Shown here: positions 931 to 64,000 of the stretch, in pieces
How positions within the stretch are numbered: position 1 is the first letter of the stretch
Layout of the letters: every line of letters begins with the position of its first letter
DNA from: Candidatus Poseidoniaceae archaeon
Lineage (GTDB): Archaea > Thermoplasmatota > Poseidoniia > Poseidoniales > Poseidoniaceae
Assembly: GCA_949372645.1 (NCBI GenBank)
Contig: CASIAP010000010.1
Location: 86,404 to 150,403, forward strand
Length of the DNA: 64,000 nt
Reading direction: 5' to 3'
The notes under the pieces: generated by a model
Databases searched by the model: none
Told to the model about the DNA's origin: nothing
What the model saw: only the letters and a program-made list of their open reading frames with translations
Translations under genes and position numbers: made by a program

Positions 931-2532
931 GTGATGGCTCAACGCAATGACGGCTCAGGGCGCGCACCCGTTGCGATTGTCCGTCCAACCACTTCAGTGA
1001 CGAGTGGCCCCGCCGTTACTCAAAAACTGGTGAATGCATCCGTTGCTTTTGGCAATCTACTCAAAGGAACTTTCGGACCAAACGGTCTTGACAAAATGAT
1101 GTACAAAACCAGTGGAGAGACCGCTGTAACCAACGATGGTGCGAAAATCGTTGCTGAACTTTTAGTAAAACACCCAGCAGCTAAGGCCTTTGTGCAACTT
1201 GCAGAATCCCAAGAGAATGCTTGTGGAGATGGAGTGACTGGCTGCCTCATCCTTGCCAGTGAACTGATGCGTGAAGCAGGGCGTCTACTCGAAAAGGGGC
1301 TTCACCCACTTTTGGTCGTTCAAGGCTACCAGGCGGCACTCGAAACCACCCTCAAGGTCTTGGACAATCGAGTCAAACGAATATCTCCCACTGATATCGA
1401 CCAACTTATTCTCGTTGCCAAAACAGCAATGACCGGAACTGCTGCAGAATCTGGCAGCGAACATCTTGCACGTTGTATCGTTGATGCCGCCCAAACAGTG
1501 GCCGGAGAAAGTAATGGTGTACTTCATGTTCGAACCGAAGATGTTCGAATGACAAAGCGCGGAGTTGGAACGCTTGCCGACACAGCGCTCCTACAAGGCC
1601 TTGTTTTAGAACGCCGTTTTGAACTTGATCGCATGCCTCGGAACCTCCCAGCAGGTAAGGTGGCCGTTGTTTCTTGCCCAATTGCTATGGAGCAAACCAC
1701 TCGCGCTGCAGAAATAGAAATATCTTCTCCAGATCAATGGGTTGACTTCATGGAAGCAGAGGAAAAAATCCTCGAAAAGAAAGCCCTTCGAGTTCTTGAA
1801 AGCGGAGCAACAATTGTCGTCTGTGCTGAGGAAATTGACCCACGCACTCTTCATCGTTTCGTTGACGCGGGATTATTTGTTCTCGCTGGTTTTGAACGTG
1901 CTGGGGCCGAGGATGTGGCCCTTGCCTCAGGTGGACAATTAGTTGACCACCTCGACGATCTCGATGCATCCACCTTGGGAAGTTTTGAATCGATGAGTGT
2001 CGAAGTTTTTGAGGGTGACGATGCTCGTAGAGAGCGCATCCATCTCAATTTCGGTAAAAACTCAGGCCTTGCTACAGTTGATGTTGGTGGTGGCGATGGT
2101 GTTGCAACAGAAGAAATCATCCGGGGGTTGTATGATGCATTGTGCTCAGTAACAAGTGCAATGGAAACTGGAGAGATTCTTTTGGGTGGTGGCAGCCTAC
2201 ATATTGCTGCAAGTCTTGCCATCAAAGATGCCGCTGAACAACATGGTGGACGGGAGCGTTTGGCAATGGAAGCATTTGCCCGAGCCCTCGAAGCCATACC
2301 TTCAGTTTTAATTTCAAATTCTGGTAACGACCAACTTGATTGTTTGCTTGAACTACGAGCTCAACATCGACAAGGTAGTACCGACTTCGGCGTAGCTGAA
2401 ACAGGCCTCTGTGAGCCGATTACAGAAGCTTGGGCCAGTGCAGAGACATTGGCGCATGGTATTGAAGCGGCCTGCGAAACGGCTTGTGGACTTTTACGAG
2501 TCGACCAAGTCATCTCGGCCCGGGGCGACTAA
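931..2532 (+). CDS. Thermosome / group II chaperonin subunit
   Basis: FGNLLKGTFGPNGLDKMMY, TNDGAKIVAELLVKHPAAK, GDGVTGCLILASELM motifs. Confidence 0.95.
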   Translation: MMAQRNDGSGRAPVAIVRPTTSVTSGPAVTQKLVNASVAFGNLLKGTFGPNGLDKMMYKTSGETAVTNDGAKIVAELLVKHPAAKAFVQLAESQENACGDGVTGCLILASELMREAGRLLEKGLHPLLVVQGYQAALETTLKVLDNRVKRISPTDIDQLILVAKTAMTGTAAESGSEHLARCIVDAAQTVAGESNGVLHVRTEDVRMTKRGVGTLADTALLQGLVLERRFELDRMPRNLPAGKVAVVSCPIAMEQTTRAAEIEISSPDQWVDFMEAEEKILEKKALRVLESGATIVVCAEEIDPRTLHRFVDAGLFVLAGFERAGAEDVALASGGQLVDHLDDLDASTLGSFESMSVEVFEGDDARRERIHLNFGKNSGLATVDVGGGDGVATEEIIRGLYDALCSVTSAMETGEILLGGGSLHIAASLAIKDAAEQHGGRERLAMEAFARALEAIPSVLISNSGNDQLDCLLELRAQHRQGSTDFGVAETGLCEPITEAWASAETLAHGIEAACETACGLLRVDQVISARGD

Positions 2533-2609
2533 CTACTCCAAAACGCCAAAACTCCTCGGCGCTATGTTCAATATCATCGGACCAATGACTTCGATAATGG
2601 GAATCTTCG

Positions 2610-4253
2610 ATGAGCACTACCTCAACCCCGCAACCCCGTGCCTTGCTCAGTGTGTATGACAAAACCGGGATTGTAGAATTTGCTACATCTTTGTCAAAAC
2701 ACGGTTTCCAACTCGTATCTACGGGAGGAACAGCTCGTACACTTCGTGCAGCAGGTTTGGAGGTTATCGGCGTATCTGATGTGACTGGCCACCCAGAAAT
2801 ATTCGATGGGCGCGTAAAATCTCTTCACCCAGCAATCCATGGACCTCTTCTTGCCCGCCTTGAATCAGAAGAGGACCTGAAGGGTCTGGCAGAACTCGGC
2901 TACCCCCCCATCCAAATCGTCGCGTGTAATCTCTACCCCTTTTCAGCAGCAGCAGCACAGCAACCACCTTTGGAAGATTCCGCTCTTTTGGAAATGATCG
3001 ATATAGGCGGACCAACAATGGTTCGCGCCTCAGCCAAAAACCACCGCAACGTCATTATCGCCTGTAACCCCTCTCGGTATGATGAAATTATTTCCAATCT
3101 TCATTCGGCATCCGGTGTTCACTCGGTGGGGATGGACCTACGGCGTAGTCTTGCTCTGGATGCATACGAGCATACCGCTGCTTACGATTCAGCCATTGCC
3201 GACGAACTCCACGCCCGCTGGGTTGGCCGCCCGGAGCTGAGCGATGACACAGCTGAACAGACCGCCCGTCTACCCGCAACCCTCCTTGCATCAGCAGTCA
3301 AAACCCATTCCTTACGGTATGGTGAAAACAGCCACCAAGCCGCAGCATTGTATACCAATCCGCGTGAATTTGACAATCATTCAACCCTTGTTACTGCGCA
3401 CGTTGAGGGCGAAAAAGACATGTCATACAACAATTATTCCGATGCAGACGCCACACTTCGTCTTTGCAGAGCCTTGTCGACTGATGAATGGCCAAACACT
3501 CCACACGTGTGTGTAATCGTCAAGCACAACAATCCTTGCGGCGCAGCCTTAGGGTCGACACAAAAAGAAGCGTATGAAGCAGCATTAGCAAGTGACCCCG
3601 AATCAGCATTTGGTTCAATAATATGCTTTAATGAACCCCTTGAAGCGGACACGGCCGAAGCAATGGAACCTCTCTTTATCGAAGTGTTAATGGCACCAGC
3701 ATACAGTGAAGAGGCCAAAAAAATAGTGATGCAAAAGAAAAATCGCCGAATCCTCACCATCGAATCTCCAGGGAACCGCTTGGCCTCTCTTGAACGGATT
3801 CTCGTCCGTAAACCAATTGAGGGGGGCTGGCTTGTTCAAACCGAAGAAGCACCAGTGATTGACTGGGATAAAGCCAAAGTCGTGACCGAAAAATCACCAA
3901 GCGAGGAAGAAATAGCAAGTATGAAATTCGCAGTTCGAATTTGTGAACAAGTGAAATCGAATGCGATTGTCATGGTACAAGGCACTGCAACAGTAGGAAT
4001 CGGTCCAGGGCAAACCAGTCGAGTCGAGGCCGTTCGTATTGCGGCCCGCCGCGCAGGAGAACGTGCTAAAGGCTGCGTACTCGCTTCTGATGCATTCTTC
4101 CCGTTCAAAGATGGGCTTGAGCAAGCTGCAGATGCAGGCGCATCATCTATTGTTCAACCAGGTGGCTCAATTCGCGACCAAGAAGTCATCGATGCTGCCG
4201 ACCATCGTGGTATCTCGATGTTGTTCACGGGCCACAGGCTTTTCCGCCATTGA
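2610..4253 (+). CDS. purH: Bifunctional AICAR formyltransferase / IMP cyclohydrolase
   Basis: ALLSVYDKTGIVEFA, VSTGGTARTLRAAG, DGRVKSLHPAIHG, LRYGENSHQAAALY, KHNNPCGAA. Confidence 0.96.
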   Translation: MSTTSTPQPRALLSVYDKTGIVEFATSLSKHGFQLVSTGGTARTLRAAGLEVIGVSDVTGHPEIFDGRVKSLHPAIHGPLLARLESEEDLKGLAELGYPPIQIVACNLYPFSAAAAQQPPLEDSALLEMIDIGGPTMVRASAKNHRNVIIACNPSRYDEIISNLHSASGVHSVGMDLRRSLALDAYEHTAAYDSAIADELHARWVGRPELSDDTAEQTARLPATLLASAVKTHSLRYGENSHQAAALYTNPREFDNHSTLVTAHVEGEKDMSYNNYSDADATLRLCRALSTDEWPNTPHVCVIVKHNNPCGAALGSTQKEAYEAALASDPESAFGSIICFNEPLEADTAEAMEPLFIEVLMAPAYSEEAKKIVMQKKNRRILTIESPGNRLASLERILVRKPIEGGWLVQTEEAPVIDWDKAKVVTEKSPSEEEIASMKFAVRICEQVKSNAIVMVQGTATVGIGPGQTSRVEAVRIAARRAGERAKGCVLASDAFFPFKDGLEQAADAGASSIVQPGGSIRDQEVIDAADHRGISMLFTGHRLFRH

Positions 4254-4311
4254 ATGCCAAATCCGTATTTGAGGCCCGATTGTTTAAGGCAAGAACCGTG
4301 CCGCTTCAAGC

Positions 4312-4494
4312 ATGGGGCACCTCAAGGACATCAACAAAACTTATTTCCAACATTTAGTTGGAGCATGGCGGATGGCTTTTTGGTTCGGTTTTGGCAGCCT
4401 TCGATTAATCATTCACGGCCTTCTTCCAAATTTCGATGCCGAAGCAGGCCACTCTACTGTGCAAAAGTACGAAGGCTCTTCAAACGAGGATTAG
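4312..4494 (+). CDS. Small protein (60 aa), DUF6356-like
   Basis: MGHLKDINKTYFQHLVGAWRMAFWFGFGSLRLIIHGLLPNF resembles the HLK..xYFEHL...IHALFP pattern of DUF6356 small proteins; lies in an otherwise empty intergenic gap. Confidence 0.6.
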   Translation: MGHLKDINKTYFQHLVGAWRMAFWFGFGSLRLIIHGLLPNFDAEAGHSTVQKYEGSSNED

Positions 4495-5006
4495 GCTGCA
4501 GTGGGCACTTTCCAACCCACCCACCAAACACCAATGATGGCGACAACAGCGATAAGTGTCTGGCCGAATCCCGGGTCTCCCGCTTTTGTAATTACCCAAA
4601 TCGAGGCGGTTGAAACTATAGAAATAATGCCCCCAATCACCACTTTAGAGTGGAAAGGCAACGCTTTTCCAGCTCGATAGTATTCTAAAAGGCTGGCACC
4701 AAATATACGATTGGTTAACAACCATTTGAACATTTTTTGACTTGATCGGGCATAACAATAGGCCGAAAGTACTAACCATGAGGTTGTTGGCCAGCCGGGG
4801 AGGAATATACCAATAACGGCGAAGAGAACTCCAAGACTCCCAATAATGATCCATACTCCACGGACAAAGGGGTTACGCGAAGGTTTGTGTTCATTGAGGA
4901 CACGTTGAATTATTTCTTCTTCAGCCAAATTGAGGAAAGGGTTTGAAGCAATTTCGCCGCCTTCTCCAGCACTCGCCGGAGAACTTGATGCCATCACTTC
5001 GCCCAT
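4491..5006 (-). CDS. DUF454 / YbaN family membrane protein
   Basis: GVLFAVIGIFLPGWPTTSWLVLSAYCYARSSQKMFKWLLTNRIFG. Confidence 0.85.
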   Translation of the reverse strand: MGEVMASSSPASAGEGGEIASNPFLNLAEEEIIQRVLNEHKPSRNPFVRGVWIIIGSLGVLFAVIGIFLPGWPTTSWLVLSAYCYARSSQKMFKWLLTNRIFGASLLEYYRAGKALPFHSKVVIGGIISIVSTASIWVITKAGDPGFGQTLIAVVAIIGVWWVGWKVPTAA

Positions 5007-5042
5007 GCCCCTCAGCCAATCCTATCGAGGGGTCCACAAAAA

Positions 5043-5747
5043 GTGATGGGCGCGCTTTTCCGAAGACCTCAAGGCATTTACAGGATAGCCCATGATATGA
5101 CCAGCGGCAAGGGTCCACTTCGCACGGGTCTCTCTTCTACTCCGATTCGCTGTGCCGTTTTTATTTCTGGGGCCGGTTCGGGCATGCACGCGATGGTCAC
5201 GCACCAACAAACACATTCTGAGTGTGGCCATCAGACCGTACTTGTCGTTTCAGACCAACCTGGAACCATTGGACTCAAGAAAGCCGAACATTTTGGCATT
5301 CCGGCGCATTGCATTCCACTCCCAGAAGAAGACAATCGCATTCTGCGCCGCCATCTCCACGAACAACAGATTCAACATCTCTTGGAAGAGTACAAAGTAG
5401 AGTTGATTCTTCTCAGTGGATATATGCGACTTCTATCGGCTGAGTTTGTAGGCCTATGGCCTCGACAAATTATCAACATCCACCCTTCACTCTTACCCGC
5501 ATTTCCCGGCGCACATGCACACCGCGACGTGGTAGCCGCCGGTGTTGAAGTATCTGGCTGCACAGTACACTACGTCGATGCAGGAATGGACTCGGGAGAA
5601 ATTCTTGATCAACGCCGAGTTCCTGTGTTCAATGATGATGATGAATCCTCTCTTGCCAACCGAGTTAAAATCGAAGAACATCAATTGTACCCCGAAGTAG
5701 TTGATAGAATCGCTCGCTCATTCAAGTCCAATCAAGAGGCGTATTGA
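5043..5747 (+). CDS. purN: Phosphoribosylglycinamide formyltransferase
   Basis: VLISGxGSGMHAM-like start, ILLSGYMRLLSAEFV, INIHPSLLPAFPGAHAHRDVVAAGVEVSGCTVHYVDAGMDSGEIL. Confidence 0.93.
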   Translation: MMGALFRRPQGIYRIAHDMTSGKGPLRTGLSSTPIRCAVFISGAGSGMHAMVTHQQTHSECGHQTVLVVSDQPGTIGLKKAEHFGIPAHCIPLPEEDNRILRRHLHEQQIQHLLEEYKVELILLSGYMRLLSAEFVGLWPRQIINIHPSLLPAFPGAHAHRDVVAAGVEVSGCTVHYVDAGMDSGEILDQRRVPVFNDDDESSLANRVKIEEHQLYPEVVDRIARSFKSNQEAY

Positions 5748-6219
5748 AATTTTTCATTTGAGAAGCCAATCCCCCCGGGTCGAGTTCACGAAAAGCCGAA
5801 AAGAGTGATGAGATCTTACCGTCAGACGGACCTAACTCCCATTCAGATGGGCAATGTGCAAGCAAAGGCTGACGAACACCATTTTCATCCAAAGGCACTC
5901 CACCTCCACTCGACAATAAAAAATCTAAACCCTCGCGCTCTAATTGAAACGAGTCACATGAAATCAGTTGAATAGCCCCTTCGATGTTTCCAAAAACCCA
6001 CTCCAATACTTTAGACAACGAGTCACATGATGGTGGGTCTGGCCATGTTTCACCTTCAAACAATGATTGGCGAGCCCCTTCGCCGCATAACGTAACGATT
6101 CGTTCAACTCCGCACTGAGTTGCGAGTGTTCGTAACCGGGCAACACCCCCGCTCATCATCGCCTTATCCTGGCCCATACGGTGGCTTTTCCCACCTGCCA
6201 GGAGCACTACAGTTACCAT
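5722..6219 (-). CDS. MobA-like NTP transferase (molybdenum cofactor guanylyltransferase-like)
   Basis: N-terminal VVLLAGGKSHRMGQDKAMM signature of the NTP-transferase family. Confidence 0.8.
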   Translation of the reverse strand: MVTVVLLAGGKSHRMGQDKAMMSGGVARLRTLATQCGVERIVTLCGEGARQSLFEGETWPDPPSCDSLSKVLEWVFGNIEGAIQLISCDSFQLEREGLDFLLSSGGGVPLDENGVRQPLLAHCPSEWELGPSDGKISSLFSAFRELDPGGLASQMKNFNTPLDWT

Positions 6220-6228
6220 CGAATCACC

Positions 6229-6438
6229 TCAAGTGAGGGTTTCAAGCCCATCTAATGCTGATTCGAGCTCAGCTAAGAGACTCCTTACGCGATCAAGTAA
6301 GGCTTTACGCTCCCTACTCGAACGTGCTTCAGGCAACCATTCCAGCAAACGGCGAACATCTTGTGCATCACGAGCTACTGTCCACTGAAGAACCGCTTCA
6401 AGCACAGGGTCGTCCGTGGGGAGAAATCGTTCACTCAT
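6229..6438 (-). CDS. Hypothetical small protein (69 aa)
   Basis: ORF immediately upstream of and co-directional with the mobA-like gene; spacing fits an operon. Confidence 0.5.
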   Translation of the reverse strand: MSERFLPTDDPVLEAVLQWTVARDAQDVRRLLEWLPEARSSRERKALLDRVRSLLAELESALDGLETLT

Positions 6439-6464
6439 AGACGCACGGTGTCAGAGCAAGGGCT

Positions 6465-7103
6465 TCAATTCTCCTGTGAAAGAATACGGTTACGAATCCT
6501 TTCAAACAATTCTCCACCTGCTGGAGCAGTTGATACAAGGCCACGGATTTCACAGAGTTCTTCTTTTCTTAATGAAAGAATTAATACGGCGACTTGATGC
6601 CAAAGTTTACTTTGCCCAGCCATTGCTATGAGCCACTGGTTGTCGGGTACTTCATGCCCACCGCGAACCAATTCTTCCCCAATCTCAAGTAAAGCCCCTA
6701 AGGGCTCTTGCTTCTTGAATAAATGAATGAAAGCCATCCAAGGGGACTCTCCTAATTCTTCCTCTGACATATTGGCAAGTAGTAATCCAACCAGGACAAG
6801 GTCTTCTTGCCCGTGGCGTTTCCAAAGCGATGGAATTAATTTCGCAACGCGGCGGATATTTCCTTCACCGCTGGTCAAGACCCAAGACGCGATATCGCGC
6901 ATTTCGGGATTAGGGCAGCCGTAGTGAAAGGAATATCCTCCAGAATGCGCCAGCAAGTCTGTTGACGGTTTCGTCATCATGCCTGGGACGCCAGAAACAT
7001 AGGCTCCCTTGAGGAATTTCAACATCTTCCTACGAGATCGAAGGAGTTTTGGTTGTGGCTCACCAAGGTAATGTGCCACTTTTTCATTCACTTCGACCAC
7101 CAT
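6465..7103 (-). CDS. Hypothetical protein
   Basis: ORF 6465..7145; start probably MVVEVNEK at 7103, giving a short overlap with the upstream ORF. Confidence 0.65.
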   Translation of the reverse strand: MVVEVNEKVAHYLGEPQPKLLRSRRKMLKFLKGAYVSGVPGMMTKPSTDLLAHSGGYSFHYGCPNPEMRDIASWVLTSGEGNIRRVAKLIPSLWKRHGQEDLVLVGLLLANMSEEELGESPWMAFIHLFKKQEPLGALLEIGEELVRGGHEVPDNQWLIAMAGQSKLWHQVAVLILSLRKEELCEIRGLVSTAPAGGELFERIRNRILSQEN

Positions 7104-56914: not shown

Positions 56915-59900
56915 ATGAATCAAAATCGGATTTCAACGGTGATCGTGCTTTCACTCCTTATTCTCTCTCAATCCAGCACTCTCTTTTTGGCCAGTGCAAA
57001 CGGGCAAGGAGGGACAATTAATCTCTTCTCAGGCGGCTCTGCCTCACTTTCTCTCTCTTTAACCGCTAACCAACTCGACACAAATCATTCGATCGAAGTT
57101 CCCCGGAACGTGACATTTGAATCGGGCCAATTCACTATTCACGCAATGGATGAATTAGCCACTCCAGGCCAAGTTTCTCTCGACATTGGGCAAGATGGAA
57201 TCACTGAATGGGAATTTAGCGGTCTTGGCTTTGGAGACTTAGGCCATCAAAACACCTTTACCAATAACATGTCTTCACAATCCATTTTTTCGAACGGTTC
57301 CGCACAATCAGCTGAATTTCTATTACCACACGATTCTACAATCAAAAACGCAATAATGAGCACGACATTCACTCCTCAAGTTCCCGCTGGATTGTTCGAA
57401 ATTGATAACCTTTTGACGTATGAAGTTGGAGACCTTGACAACGACACTCGCCACGAAATAGTCGTCAAAGCTAATGTAAACATCTCAGGCATTCCTGTAG
57501 GGCCTGCATTGGGCACTCTTGATTGGAATACAACATCCGGCATCACTCTTTCATCCTGGGTCCCGACATGTGGTGCTGGAGGCGATATCACCGTAGTCGA
57601 TGTGAATGGTGATAATTTTAGCGATGTGATTTCAATTGCCCCCGATAATGATAGCGTATGTTTCCATCAAACAAGCCCAGTAAATGGGACCTTGAGTTCT
57701 GGGATGCCAATTAACCTTTCAGCCGACTTGATATCTGCCAGTGTAGGCGACATCAATGGCGATGGATATGCCGATATCTTATCGATTCATCAAGGTGGAA
57801 TCGTATCTTTACGCCTTTACAATGATAAGTTGAGTACTTTTGATGAGAACAGTACCTTGGTAGTTAATTCGAATGGTACAATTTTTCCAGCCATGTTGGC
57901 AAATCTCTATGCTGGGCATTTGAATGGGACGCTGGGACCTTTCTCAGCAGTCGTGACGGACAATTCAGGTCATTCAAGTCATATTCAATGGGTGAATAAC
58001 GCCCTAACTACGGCAGTGGACACATTCGATGGACTTGGTTCTGAAGTGATTGGAGGTGACATTGATCAAGATGGCGACATCGACTTTTTGTCCTCAACTC
58101 AGCTAGGTGTCGTCATTGCTGAAAATACAGGATCGACCTGGACGACAACTACAGTGATTGCATCACTGAATCTTGTTAATGGCACAATTGCAGACTATAA
58201 CGGCGATGGCAACCTTTCTCTCATCGCCCCCCAATTCGCTTCGAGTGATGGAAGTTCTCAAACTCTGGAAGGAAACCTTACTCTGTATAATATTACGACT
58301 ACTTCTATCTCAGTGACCCAAACAATTCTCGAACCATGGTCGCACCCAACCAATTCAATATTTGCAGACATAGATGCTGATGGCCTACCGGAACACATTG
58401 TTTCTGCTGGTGAAGGAAACACCTTTGGTTTGTTTATTGGATCATGGAATTCAATCGGCATGGACATAGACCAAAACGGTCAAAATGATTTATTCGCATC
58501 TGGGTATGCCGGAAATGGGCAGAATGGGACCCCCCCCCTTCAATTTCAAGATCCGAATGGAGAACTAAAGAATCTCCTCTCCCCATTGACTTTCAATCCC
58601 TCGTATACATTACACAGTTTCGGCATCAAAATGAACCATTTCGCCTATGATTTTACCAGTTCAGGATATGGTGACTTCAATATTACGAGCATGGACATTG
58701 GGTATGACTTTGCATTCCTTGTTGAAAGCAATCTCTTTGGAGGAGTTATTGCCGATGCCATCAATCAACAGCAAACAGCAGGGAATGGAGTAATTAGTAT
58801 TGTCTTGCCATTCCTCTCAACGAAAAGTGGTACATTGCCAATTTCTAATCTCCAAGCAGATTATATTCCCGGCGCGCCGAATTTGGATTCACTACCAGAC
58901 CCTATCTTGAAAATAGACTCACTTACTTCCGAGGCCCTTGTGTTCTCATGGCAAGATGAAACTGATTTCGGAATAGAGTTGATTTCCTTTGAAATCTTCA
59001 AAGCGAATGGTAGTGACCCGTTTGATCTCAATACCCCCTCCACTATCTCTCTGTTTAATTCATCATTAGATGCCGATATTTCCCCCGGGCAGATGTATCG
59101 CTACGCCGTTCGCTCGCTGCATTCATATGGAGTGAGGGGCAATCTCTCTGCAACCCTTTCAATCACCGTACCCTTCCCTTCCCCCCCTCTAGCGGTTCAA
59201 GGCCTCAATGTCATCGATACTGCAAATGATAATGGCAGTTCGCTTAGTGTCACATGGAATGCTTCACTCGACTCTATTTCAGGATACAACCTTTTTGTCA
59301 ACACTGAGGAAATCACGACACTCCAATCTTTGACTTCAGTTGCTACCTTTGCACCGTTCACAAATCAACTCACCACGAATATTACTGTGGATGGTAATGG
59401 AAATACATTGGTTGATCGGACCGATTACTGGGTCGCTGTCGTGGCCTACGATTCCTTCGGAAACCTCTCAACAAACTTCTCCTCCTTTGGACCAGTACAA
59501 TCACAAAACAATTCTCTCCGATCAAGCGTTATTACCTTTGAAATGTCTTCAAGCGGATTTTTGAACGCGAGTTGGTTTGAACTGAGCGCATTGGATTCTT
59601 TAACCCTGAACCTCACTCTTTCGAGCGCAGGAGAAGGTATCCCGTCTCAAGATTTAATCCTCCATTTCATTGCTCTCGATTATGATCATACCCTCACTGG
59701 TACGACTGATGGAAATGGTGTTTGGTCTGCTGTCCAAGTCGAAGACTTGACGGATTTATCAGCAACTTTTTCTGACTTTATAGGCACCGTTTCTATTGTA
59801 GCGGAATACAGTGGAACAACCGGCACTCCTACTCTTCAGCCAACAGAGATGAGCACTGCGACCTTGAATGGAATGGGCGTCTTGCGCGCAACAACATCCA

Positions 59901-61186
59901 CCTCTTCAGAATCGATTGAACTCGACGAATCCCAACAATTCTCGATTGCTGCATCCATTACTCCCGAACTCCCTACACAGATCGCGCGACTTGCTAACGT
60001 TGTATATGATTGGGAACTTTTGAATTCAGCAGGAACTCTCTCGGACTCCGGTACTGTCGAAATTAAAGGCGGAGAAATCACACTTGACGGAACCGCCTCT
60101 TCAGGCGACGAGCTGACGTTCTGGCCTTCAGCTAACCAACCATGGTTTTCACCAACACCAGATACGTTTAGTTTCACTTTCCACAACTCTTTGAGTAATG
60201 AAACGGGTAACGAAACCGGTAATGAAACGGGTAATGAAACGGGTAATGAAACCAATCAACCAACATTCCCAGATGTGACGCTTGCTGGTTCCCTTTCTTG
60301 CCAAGTAATAACGTATGCATGGGAGCAAAACTCTTCCGACGCACCGTTGACATGCACCATCACCAACCCAAATCCCTTTGAGGTTCAAATTGCCTTTAGC
60401 TGGGCAGTCATTCCGGCTACACCTCCGCCACTTTCTTTTGAGCCCGACCCTCTGCCCAGTTCGGGGCCAATCCTTACAATGAACGCCAATGAAACGCTCG
60501 AGGTCACGTTTACTCCAATACGAAACGGCCCATCCGATGGATTGTTCCCAGGTCTACAAGGAGTCGGTTATGTGTTAACACTCACTTGCATGGATGACGG
60601 CACAGATCGCTGCTCAGCAATGACGACGCCTTCCGCCACAACCGAGGGTGAAATCCAATGGACGCTTGCAGCCCAACTGGAAGTGGATGAGCCAATTGAC
60701 ACCGATCCTACAGAAACCAAGGGTGGTTCTGGCGCACTGATTGGTGGAATCATTGCGGTACTGGTTCTTGGCGGCTTAGGTGCCGCCTTTGTCTTACTAC
60801 GAACTCGAACAGATGAAGACGATTGGTCTGAACAATTTGATGATGAACAAGAATTCGAAGACGACAGCACCCCCGCTCCAATTACTAAACCAAATCGCAG
60901 TTTAGATGAAATCAAATCGGAAGGTGGTCAGATTTCGGACGAAGAACCTCCCGAAGAACGTCGCTCTTCACTCTTTGATGAAGTTGATGGCCGTGGTGAA
61001 ATCGAAGACTTTGACACTCATGAAGATGAGATTGAAGAAGTTGAAGCAGAAGTTGAACAAGAATCAGCGTCTGAAGGCGATGGAATAACGGTCGATGAAG
61101 AAGGAACTGAATGGTGGGAAGACGAAGAGGGCGTTTGGTGGTACCGTGAAGACGGTTGGGAAGATTGGGCAGTCTGGGAAGATTAA
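56915..61186 (+). CDS. Large exported protein (1423 aa): FG-GAP/VCBS-like and FN3-like repeats, sequon-rich stalk, TM, acidic Trp-rich cytoplasmic tail
   Basis: Signal peptide; DINGDGYADILSIHQGG, DIDQDGDIDFLSSTQLG repeats; TM GSGALIGGIIAVLVLGGLGAAFVLLRTR; tail EGTEWWEDEEGVWWYREDGWEDWAVWED. Confidence 0.88.
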   Translation: MNQNRISTVIVLSLLILSQSSTLFLASANGQGGTINLFSGGSASLSLSLTANQLDTNHSIEVPRNVTFESGQFTIHAMDELATPGQVSLDIGQDGITEWEFSGLGFGDLGHQNTFTNNMSSQSIFSNGSAQSAEFLLPHDSTIKNAIMSTTFTPQVPAGLFEIDNLLTYEVGDLDNDTRHEIVVKANVNISGIPVGPALGTLDWNTTSGITLSSWVPTCGAGGDITVVDVNGDNFSDVISIAPDNDSVCFHQTSPVNGTLSSGMPINLSADLISASVGDINGDGYADILSIHQGGIVSLRLYNDKLSTFDENSTLVVNSNGTIFPAMLANLYAGHLNGTLGPFSAVVTDNSGHSSHIQWVNNALTTAVDTFDGLGSEVIGGDIDQDGDIDFLSSTQLGVVIAENTGSTWTTTTVIASLNLVNGTIADYNGDGNLSLIAPQFASSDGSSQTLEGNLTLYNITTTSISVTQTILEPWSHPTNSIFADIDADGLPEHIVSAGEGNTFGLFIGSWNSIGMDIDQNGQNDLFASGYAGNGQNGTPPLQFQDPNGELKNLLSPLTFNPSYTLHSFGIKMNHFAYDFTSSGYGDFNITSMDIGYDFAFLVESNLFGGVIADAINQQQTAGNGVISIVLPFLSTKSGTLPISNLQADYIPGAPNLDSLPDPILKIDSLTSEALVFSWQDETDFGIELISFEIFKANGSDPFDLNTPSTISLFNSSLDADISPGQMYRYAVRSLHSYGVRGNLSATLSITVPFPSPPLAVQGLNVIDTANDNGSSLSVTWNASLDSISGYNLFVNTEEITTLQSLTSVATFAPFTNQLTTNITVDGNGNTLVDRTDYWVAVVAYDSFGNLSTNFSSFGPVQSQNNSLRSSVITFEMSSSGFLNASWFELSALDSLTLNLTLSSAGEGIPSQDLILHFIALDYDHTLTGTTDGNGVWSAVQVEDLTDLSATFSDFIGTVSIVAEYSGTTGTPTLQPTEMSTATLNGMGVLRATTSTSSESIELDESQQFSIAASITPELPTQIARLANVVYDWELLNSAGTLSDSGTVEIKGGEITLDGTASSGDELTFWPSANQPWFSPTPDTFSFTFHNSLSNETGNETGNETGNETGNETNQPTFPDVTLAGSLSCQVITYAWEQNSSDAPLTCTITNPNPFEVQIAFSWAVIPATPPPLSFEPDPLPSSGPILTMNANETLEVTFTPIRNGPSDGLFPGLQGVGYVLTLTCMDDGTDRCSAMTTPSATTEGEIQWTLAAQLEVDEPIDTDPTETKGGSGALIGGIIAVLVLGGLGAAFVLLRTRTDEDDWSEQFDDEQEFEDDSTPAPITKPNRSLDEIKSEGGQISDEEPPEERRSSLFDEVDGRGEIEDFDTHEDEIEEVEAEVEQESASEGDGITVDEEGTEWWEDEEGVWWYREDGWEDWAVWED
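60197..60253 (+). repeat. 12-bp tandem repeat encoding (NETG)5
   Basis: aatgaaacgggt x5 with silent variation. Confidence 0.9.
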
Positions 61187-61241: not shown

Positions 61242-62012
61242 ATGGAACACGAATTCAAAGGATATGCTCTGGTTCTTCAAGACGGTGCAGACCCTCGAAC
61301 AACAGGTGGCGTTGCTGTTGCTGGATTTACAACAGCGGGTATGGTTGGCGTGATTGCCGCATCCCATATCATTCAAACACTCAAGCTCAAGCAATTAGGT
61401 ACGGTGCTAAATGCAACATTCCCCGCAGTGGCCCTGATTCACAATGAGGTGCCAAAGCACCCGGTTCGAGTGTACCAAGGTGATGGCATTGGCGTATTCA
61501 CCTCAGAAATACAATTCAAAGATGAACAAGACATCATGTTTGCATCTACTGTTTTGGAATGGTTCACACGTGGTGGTTTTGACCGACTCATTATCATCGA
61601 TGGACTGGTTCAATCCAGTAAGGATGCCTCCTCTGGTAATTTGTTCGGTGTCGGCTCGTCGCAATTGGCACGAGACCGTCTTCACCGCGCTGGTATCGAG
61701 CCAATCCAGCAAGGTATTGTTGCCGGTATTACTGGCTTTCTTCTTGGAGAAGGCGATCGTCTTGGAATCGATGTGACCGCTTTACTCGCAGAGGCCAGTC
61801 CAATGTACCCAGATGCACGAGCCGCTGCTTTAGCGGTTGAAGCCGTTGCCGAGTTGACAGGTATTGAAATCCCTCTTAGTGAATTGCTTGAAAATGCTCA
61901 AGATATTGAAGACAGTGTTCGAGAAGTCATTGAAAACACTCAGACACTCTTGCCGGGGCCTGAAACTCAAACGTTCACATCAGAACAAGATACTGACCCT
62001 TCATTCGGCTAA
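61242..62012 (+). CDS. PAC2-family protein (second paralog)
   Basis: VAGFTTAGMVGVIAASHIIQTLKLKQLGTVLNATFPAVALIHNEVPKHPVRVY ... LLAEASPMYPDARAAALAVEAVAEL. Confidence 0.88.
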   Translation: MEHEFKGYALVLQDGADPRTTGGVAVAGFTTAGMVGVIAASHIIQTLKLKQLGTVLNATFPAVALIHNEVPKHPVRVYQGDGIGVFTSEIQFKDEQDIMFASTVLEWFTRGGFDRLIIIDGLVQSSKDASSGNLFGVGSSQLARDRLHRAGIEPIQQGIVAGITGFLLGEGDRLGIDVTALLAEASPMYPDARAAALAVEAVAELTGIEIPLSELLENAQDIEDSVREVIENTQTLLPGPETQTFTSEQDTDPSFG

Positions 62013-63365
62013 AGGGGAATTCTTCCTCACGTGTTGCAAAACCGTTTCGAACGGAGCATCTGTAACCAGTAACGGTTCCAAATCTGGCAATCGTGCAGCA
62101 CAGTGCCCATCTGCGAGAATACTTGCAATTAATTTCTCAAGTTTCGGCGCCCCACCGATACCAGCCCAACGCGGTAATGAATCCAGATTCAGCAGCAAAT
62201 GTTCACGGCTCATGAGGTCAGCTGCTTCGGAAATATACCGTACACTGCGCCTTAGTTCTCGAGTTGAATATTCAACATCATCGGCACTCCATTCGAGCCC
62301 TGCCGTTTTCATTCCTTCAATTTCTTCCGGTGAAGCTTGGCACAGTTCAAGCACCTTTTCTTCAGTCATACGACTTGCAACATCTTTGTCCCACAAAGGC
62401 CCAACCCATAACGGGCCGCTTGCACGCTTGACTTGTTCTGGAGTTGGATGTCGAACAAATCTGTACGGTACATCCTCTTCTCGAACTCTCCATCCGATCA
62501 TGTCACCAATTTTACTCGCCTTTTCCCGACTTGTTTTGACTAAACAAGAAATTCGAACATGGTGGCCATCAAAGAGGGCCATCAACGGTGTAATGGATTT
62601 GTCCAAGCGTGCAGCACTGGTGGCAACCGTTGCAAGAAGCAGACGTACAGCATCATCATGTGCATAGACATCGACGATTCCTTTCGCTCCATACCGTCGA
62701 GCTTGACTGGATGCAGATGAACCGGTGAGGGCTGCAGTATCTGTTGCTGTGATTTCCAAAACGCCAGTTCTGGACAACCCTTGGAGGGCAGCGTCAAGAA
62801 ATTGAACTGGTGAGCCGAAAGGGTCGAGGTCAATCCATTGATATCCGTTTTCCATCATTGCAATACGTGCATCGATGTTTCGAAAATCCAATCCATTGAC
62901 AAAACGTTGCTCTGAATTCTTTCCGTAACGGTCATCTTCAGGCTCATGTTCAATGTTTTGAACTGGTGGGTGTGTCGAATGTGATATTTTGGCCCAGTCT
63001 AACGCAAACTGATCTAAATCGTTAGCCGTTATTCTCAAACGTTGTTGAACATGAGCAGGGATTTCATTCCTCCATCGACGAATTCGAACCCCAGTTGCAC
63101 ACAATGCATCTAATGCCCGAATCGTTTGGTCGGGACGTACTAACCAATCATGCTCAAGTGCGTCGTTGAGTAACAGTATGCTACGGGTTCGGGCTGGAGC
63201 CATAGCTGGATTGAGAAAACCGGGGCCAGTCCTTTTTGCTGGCCCTCTTGGCATATGCGTTGGACGAGTTTGTTCAGCCAACAAGTGTACCAAAGTTCGG
63301 CCTTCAAGCCATATTTGGCCAGGCCAACCATCTGGGCCTAAGTCCCCATTTGCGCCTTCGGCCAT
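62001..63365 (-). CDS. trm1: tRNA (guanine26-N2)-dimethyltransferase
   Basis: GPGFLNPAMAPARTRSILLLNDAL, ALDALCATGVRIRRWRNE, WIDLDPFGSPVQFLDAALQGLSRTGVLEITATDTAAL. Confidence 0.93.
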   Translation of the reverse strand: MAEGANGDLGPDGWPGQIWLEGRTLVHLLAEQTRPTHMPRGPAKRTGPGFLNPAMAPARTRSILLLNDALEHDWLVRPDQTIRALDALCATGVRIRRWRNEIPAHVQQRLRITANDLDQFALDWAKISHSTHPPVQNIEHEPEDDRYGKNSEQRFVNGLDFRNIDARIAMMENGYQWIDLDPFGSPVQFLDAALQGLSRTGVLEITATDTAALTGSSASSQARRYGAKGIVDVYAHDDAVRLLLATVATSAARLDKSITPLMALFDGHHVRISCLVKTSREKASKIGDMIGWRVREEDVPYRFVRHPTPEQVKRASGPLWVGPLWDKDVASRMTEEKVLELCQASPEEIEGMKTAGLEWSADDVEYSTRELRRSVRYISEAADLMSREHLLLNLDSLPRWAGIGGAPKLEKLIASILADGHCAARLPDLEPLLVTDAPFETVLQHVRKNSPLAE

Positions 63366-63499: not shown

Positions 63500-64000
63500 A
63501 TGTCAATGATGACGACTAAAACGATGCTTGCTGCAGGACTTGTATGCTTACTTCTGAGCGGTGGGCTTTCCGTGCTCTCTACAGGTGCCGTAGAAGACGC
63601 AGTAATTGAAGCAACAAAGACCACACCATTAGATAACATTTGTTCCGACGATGATTGTACAGAATTTGAAGAAGACTGGGTGACCTCGACAACTGACCGA
63701 GACTTCTATGGATGGACGGTAACCAATGCAGCAGAAGTTGCAAACGGTAGTGCCCCAACTCATAAAATGATTGGACCGGTCACCTACACCATCACTTCTG
63801 ACCGAACCTTTACTTCTCACAATTCAACCGCTGGAACAGTCACCTATCATGAGAACACATCCTATGCATGCTCTGTTGATACTGATACTCCTTGTGACGT
63901 TCAAATCACACAACTCAACATCGGTTTCACCCCTCAAGTTATTGGAGCAACCGGACTTGCTATTGATGGAATCATGGAATTGACCAAAGTTGGCTTCTCA
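63500..64000 (+). CDS. N-terminus of an exported CD36/LIMP-2-like protein, truncated by window end
   Basis: Open frame from ATG 63500 to window end: MSMMTTKTMLAAGLVCLLLSGGLSVLSTGAVED...FEEDWVTSTTDRDFYGWTVTNAAEVANGSAPTHKMIGPVTYTITSDRTFTSHNSTAGTVTYHENTSYACSVDTDTPCDVQITQLNIGFTPQVIGATG. Confidence 0.6.
   Translation, partial: MSMMTTKTMLAAGLVCLLLSGGLSVLSTGAVEDAVIEATKTTPLDNICSDDDCTEFEEDWVTSTTDRDFYGWTVTNAAEVANGSAPTHKMIGPVTYTITSDRTFTSHNSTAGTVTYHENTSYACSVDTDTPCDVQITQLNIGFTPQVIGATGLAIDGIMELTKVGFS

Follow-up and report, generated by a model that had tools for sequence, protein, structure and literature searches.

A CD36/LIMP-2 family protein in Poseidoniales archaea, with an apex domain of its own and an inferred role in lipid capture

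The window analyzed here, a stretch of 64,000 nucleotides from the genome of a Candidatus Poseidoniaceae archaeon (C10:86404-150403), closes on the 5' part of a CD36-type gene. Its reading frame is cut because contig C10 of the assembly ends there, window position 64000 being the final base of the contig (150403). The genes that precede it encode a large FG-GAP-repeat surface protein, a PAC2-family protein and a TRM1-type tRNA methyltransferase (Table 1). The FG-GAP protein is 1423 residues long, and its C-terminal membrane helix is followed by a tryptophan-rich acidic tail (GTEWWEDEEGVWWYREDGWEDWAVWED) that is nearly identical in the orthologs at loci L075, L083 and L073.

Table 1. Coordinates of the CD36-type gene fragment and its conserved neighbors in the window
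Feature	Position	Strand	Basis and remarks
CD36-type gene, 5' part, 167 codons	63500..64000	+	Open from ATG to window end; PF01130 6.7e-9
Codons of predicted N-terminal membrane helix, about residues 6-28	63515..63583	+	Homology to ortholog AlphaFold model (helix 6-28); hydropathy scan of relatives
Codons 54-144, Pfam CD36 match (model 37-133), first long barrel strands (predicted)	63659..63931	+	Pfam; profile alignment with LIMP-2
TRM1-type tRNA (guanine-N2) dimethyltransferase, conserved upstream neighbor, outside system	62001..63365	-	PF02005 1.4e-47; order kept in L075, L083, L073
PAC2-family protein, conserved neighbor, outside system	61242..62012	+	PF09754 4.6e-34; order kept in L075, L083, L073
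Large FG-GAP-repeat surface protein, conserved neighbor, no evidence of system membership	56915..61186	+	PF13517 1.4e-16; order kept in L075, L083, L073

CD36 and LIMP-2 are lipid-binding scavenger receptors of animals. A first-pass annotation of this DNA had read the truncated frame as a CD36/LIMP-2-like exported protein in an archaeon, on the strength of a series of features (FEEDWV, FYGWTVTNAAEVANGSAPTHKMIGPVTYTI, NSTAGTVTYHENTSYA) that it likened to the start of the CD36 ectodomain. All of these are present in the translation, and the parallel with the family holds residue by residue, the archaeal TEFEEDWVTSTADRDFYGWTVTNLDDVMANGTAPTHEKVGPVTYTI block being placed on LIMP-2 TEAFDSWEKPPLPVYTQFYFFNVTNPEEILRGETPRVEEVGPYTYRE by profile alignment. 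The Pfam CD36 model (PF01130) matches the 167-residue fragment with 35.2 bits, above its curated cut-off of 26.5 bits; a Pfam scan of the fragment returned no other significant family, and the same CD36 family search gave no match in 14 control genomes.

A family profile search located a 475-residue, 5'-truncated frame reaching the end of contig C8 of the same genome. Over residues 1-168 the 884-residue L075 ortholog shares 86% identity with the window part, and over residues 388-857 it shares 74% with the C8 part. Beside the C8 frame lie counterparts of the PurM-like, esterase-like and MCM-like neighbors in related genomes (names judged from the sequences, without a domain scan). In L083 and L073 the order runs FG-GAP, PAC2, TRM1, one intact CD36-type gene, PurM, esterase, MCM, and L075 keeps this order up to the esterase, where the contig sequence examined stops. 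Because of this synteny and the identity to the L075 ortholog, we infer that a single gene most probably spans the ends of C10 and C8, about 219 of its codons being unassembled; its C-terminal 475 residues would then be those at the C8 end, in matching gene order. The same genome also encodes a complete CD36-type paralog of 901 residues on contig C9, about 45-47% identical to the window part.

A TctA-family transporter gene and an unnamed gene of ~530 residues precede the CD36-type gene on the same strand in seven Thalassarchaeaceae loci (L040, L041, L043, L044, L045, L046 and L050), forming a possible operon. The CD36-type gene is split into two frames in a copy of the single-contig MG-II genome CM001443.1 (L074, 6001..8690), and its 3' end is seemingly frameshifted in L036/L072; these seem to be assembly errors or decayed copies.

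Full-length relatives, mostly 840-990 residues long, match PF01130 in one or two stretches with up to 73.1 bits (cut-off 26.5), the alignments spanning only part of the 463-position CD36 model; no NCBIfam model was found that recognizes the archaeal CD36-type proteins. When a profile of 65 archaeal sequences was compared with all PDB sequences, only LIMP-2 (2.2e-5) and CD36 (2.2e-4) were returned, and this search placed the archaeal 'pYltqsvnnWLlGWhDpv' on LIMP-2 LFVTHTVDELLWGYKDEI, a stretch that is not significant alone. The human comparison sequences agree with the PDB chains over the LIMP-2 ectodomain, except for one residue, and over all of CD36. In profile alignments with LIMP-2/CD36, the N-terminal part reached 1.4e-8, the C-terminal part alone was weak (0.005) and the insert between them gave 0.5. 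The conserved blocks of the archaeal proteins and of LIMP-2/CD36 follow the same order, interrupted by this one large insert, and with the insert cut out the archaeal profile is collinear with LIMP-2 residues 47-432 at 7.8e-10.

Structure prediction leads to the same family. AlphaFold models were obtained for the 884-residue L075 ortholog (mean pLDDT 86.3, pTM 0.75) and for a Thalassarchaeaceae protein of 839 residues, about 30% identical to it (pLDDT 80.4, pTM 0.70). In a PDB fold search at E<=0.001, the full-length predicted folds matched CD36/LIMP-2 and no other fold (12 of 12 and 13 of 13 matches for the two models, probability 1.00). TM-scores normalized to LIMP-2 were 0.60 in two full-length alignments and about 0.4 in partial ones, at a structural identity to CD36/LIMP-2 of 8-13%; the next match, for both models, was the mycobacterial protein LmcA (E 0.004-0.03). 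The models therefore predict, without a solved structure, the asymmetric beta-barrel fold of the CD36/LIMP-2 type. Terminal helices occur at both the N- and C-terminus of each model, both terminal hydrophobic segments were detected by a simple hydropathy scan in 58 of 61 full-length sequences (47 of which have only those two), and the C8 fragment of the window genome likewise ends in a hydrophobic terminal segment. The second membrane helix that the first-pass annotation had expected near the C-terminus is thus found in the models, the fragment and the relatives alike. Its description as an exported protein needs refining, as the protein is not simply exported: a large ectodomain lies between two membrane helices that anchor it at both ends. 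Since the CD36 HMM scores significantly against both the fragment and its full-length relatives, and since the fold matches CD36/LIMP-2, the homology claimed for this archaeon is supported. The window gene is a member of the CD36/LIMP-2 family by computation, its function, including the uptake of lipid or particles that the annotation had raised, being a matter of inference.

Roughly 400 residues separate the N-terminal block from the 'GWhDP' segment, and about 350 of these have no CD36 counterpart. In the models this insert, mostly helical, sits at the membrane-distal apex, where it enlarges the apex helices into the largest and most variable part of the archaeal proteins; metazoan CD36 has no such insert. 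One Thalassarchaeaceae member of 618 residues (L051, 4027..5880, minus strand) is without most of the insert, which brings it near the usual length of CD36. In eukaryotic members the apex recognizes ligands and has undergone independent helical expansions (PMC10715195).

The archaeal proteins resemble CD36, LIMP-2 and SR-BI (class B, PF01130) in an HMM score over the cut-off, collinear blocks, a predicted beta-barrel, and helices at both ends with short tails. They differ in an ectodomain about twice as long as that of CD36, owing to the ~350-residue apex insert, which has no detectable similarity to these receptors. They also meet the operational definition of class B scavenger receptors (SR-Bs), an ectodomain flanked by two membrane helices (PMC10715195). 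Eukaryotic SR-Bs with lineage-specific apex expansions, such as Dictyostelium LmpA and those of oomycetes and ciliates, likewise keep the barrel conserved, enlarge the apex at this position by many helical residues and have ectodomains of more than 500 residues (PMC10715195), a likeness in layout rather than one drawn from insert sequences; that study covers eukaryotes alone and does not mention archaea. Among prokaryotic proteins, LmcA/MSMEG_0317 (DUF3068/PorA) is reported to resemble CD36 in structure and possibly to bind lipid (PMC8972800). It shares the asymmetric beta-barrel and a proposed lipid role and is the next-best fold match, but it has only ~320 residues, lacks the apex bundle and matches the archaeal proteins much more weakly than CD36 does. 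Membership in the LmcA/PorA family was rejected on this weaker fold score and on Pfam scans of the full-length archaeal proteins, in which CD36 was the only significant family and DUF3068/PorA gave no match.

PF01130 matches were found in 103 of 392 Thermoplasmatota genomes, all of them in the order Poseidoniales, an assignment that rests on each of the 103 carrying a label that puts it in the genus, family or order of the window genome. The family profile matches 262 of the 341 genomes of the class, in 19 of 25 genera; many genomes without a match are incomplete, and the order is unresolved for 59 of them. A contig scan yielded 80 loci, Poseidoniales-like throughout, which says little about other phyla because the query was a Poseidoniales-type peptide. 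One bin among them is labeled Rhodobiaceae (L090, uncultured bacterium), yet its protein groups among Poseidoniaceae-type proteins, and it is probably a misplaced contig or a mislabeled bin. In an unrooted quick tree, the rows of the two families fall on opposite sides of one branch (rows without a family label being counted as Poseidoniaceae), as would be expected of vertical descent with duplications. Judged by this tree and by named relatives, the window organism belongs to the Poseidoniales and probably to the family Poseidoniaceae. The L003-like copy in the L037/L067 genome (Thalassarchaeaceae) departs from the pattern of vertical descent; it shares 60% identity with L003 and was too short for the tree. 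At L037 two CD36-type paralogs, only about 30% identical, lie head-to-head (1993..4509, minus strand; 4629..6752, plus strand). The plus-strand one is the copy with 60% identity to the L003 type of Poseidoniaceae; from sequence comparison alone, this suggests either that the gene passed between the two families or that it duplicated long ago.

Contamination of the bin with eukaryotic DNA was rejected, because several independent assemblies show the orthologs within a conserved archaeal gene order and the single-contig genome CM001443.1 also has the family. A viral origin was likewise rejected, as a protein search for phage relatives gave no match and a fold search against predicted viral structures gave none that was significant. 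The present data do not distinguish an archaeal branch that predates eukaryotes from one taken over from them.

Superfamily members of known role are largely lipid-linked. Starting from the computed features (homology, fold, two terminal helices, apex insert and near order-wide presence), we propose, with middling confidence, an archaeal protein of the class B scavenger receptor type that captures long-chain lipids at the cell surface and transfers them. A CD36-type beta-barrel ectodomain would face outward between an N-terminal membrane helix and a C-terminal one, the latter followed by a short cytoplasmic tail; the apex insert (about 350 residues, mostly helical) would recognize lipid-bearing particles, vesicles or free long-chain lipids; the barrel would bind the acyl chain and pass it to the membrane; and lipid from the membrane would be activated by an acyl-CoA ligase for beta-oxidation or membrane building. 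Outward orientation, ligand, tunnel, transfer and use are all inferred here, with no ligand, tunnel or transport data. In eukaryotic members an intramolecular tunnel carries fatty acids or cholesterol (PMC10715195), and fatty-acid degradation is reported to be encoded in all Poseidoniales genera (PMC6461757). These degradation genes and the lipid links of the superfamily make lipid capture and transfer the best-supported reading.

The window genome itself carries acyl-CoA dehydrogenases, 3-hydroxyacyl-CoA dehydrogenases (3HCDH) and thiolases, together with a single acyl-CoA ligase; its best matches are long-chain models, at scores under the strict NCBIfam cut-offs. In six loci that form one syntenic group, the CD36-type gene has a 3HCDH/enoyl-CoA-hydratase gene two genes away, and in L063 a 3HCDH-like gene adjoins it. 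The lipid link drawn from these seven loci is suggestive only and may reflect chance, since most neighbors are housekeeping genes (TRM1, PAC2, PurM, PheS). LIMP-2 is also a sorting receptor, so the CD36 fold does not by itself dictate lipid uptake.

The same architecture could serve adhesion, with the barrel as a stalk that transfers no lipid and the apex insert as the part that binds other cells, algal surfaces or particles. Particle attachment has been proposed for Poseidoniales (PMC6461757), the apex that varies most is the ligand-recognizing end in eukaryotic homologs (PMC10715195), and the conserved neighbors of the window gene include one for a large FG-GAP surface protein; but what is conserved is the barrel, which carries the lipid in eukaryotes, and Pfam detects no known adhesin domain in the insert, so that we consider an adhesion receptor unlikely without dismissing it. 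We find it improbable that the protein serves envelope-lipid traffic of the sort proposed for mycobacterial LmcA/PgfA, moving the cell's own lipids or lipid-linked sugars out of the membrane or to its other side, with no import of foreign lipid. The CD36/LIMP-2 match is far stronger than that to LmcA, the best prokaryotic fold match, and the presence of at least two paralogs per genome with diverging apices fits several ligands better than one internal lipid, even though an LmcA ortholog coordinates lipid trafficking (PMC9678360), a glycosyltransferase gene adjoins the CD36-type gene in six loci and near order-wide presence would fit a housekeeping role. An unrelated surface protein with a chance likeness to the start of CD36, for which only the low structural identity and the partial Pfam coverage could be cited, is scarcely credible and was rejected: sequence, profile and fold searches agree on one family, the blocks are collinear and both terminal helices are present.

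The literature collection searched contained no description of archaeal CD36-family proteins, and automated databases may already attach the Pfam CD36 name to some of them. A CD36-like fold was previously known in Actinobacteria from structure; what is new is an archaeal branch recognizable by sequence, anchored by two helices, spread across an order and bearing its own apex domain. Poseidoniales (Marine Group II) are among the most abundant archaea of the surface ocean. That this order-wide SR-B protein, with a recognition domain of its own at the apex, captures and imports exogenous long-chain lipids in them, and that the family also connects archaeal and eukaryotic lineages through pre-eukaryote common descent or gene transfer, is a joint proposal that we put forward only tentatively. 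If true, this would be the first such lipid-uptake receptor recognized in Archaea, as far as we have found. The published history of class B scavenger receptors takes them back to the last eukaryotic common ancestor and connects them with phagocytosis (PMC10715195); an archaeal branch spanning a whole lineage would shift the starting point of that history and open it to testing, the family being older than eukaryotes or its genes having crossed between eukaryotes and marine archaea. It would also provide a concrete candidate for possible lipid uptake by uncultured archaea that have fatty-acid-degradation genes. Full-length copies in most genera of these ocean archaea suggest, without showing it, that a CD36-type protein serves them in capturing lipids or moving them at the cell surface.
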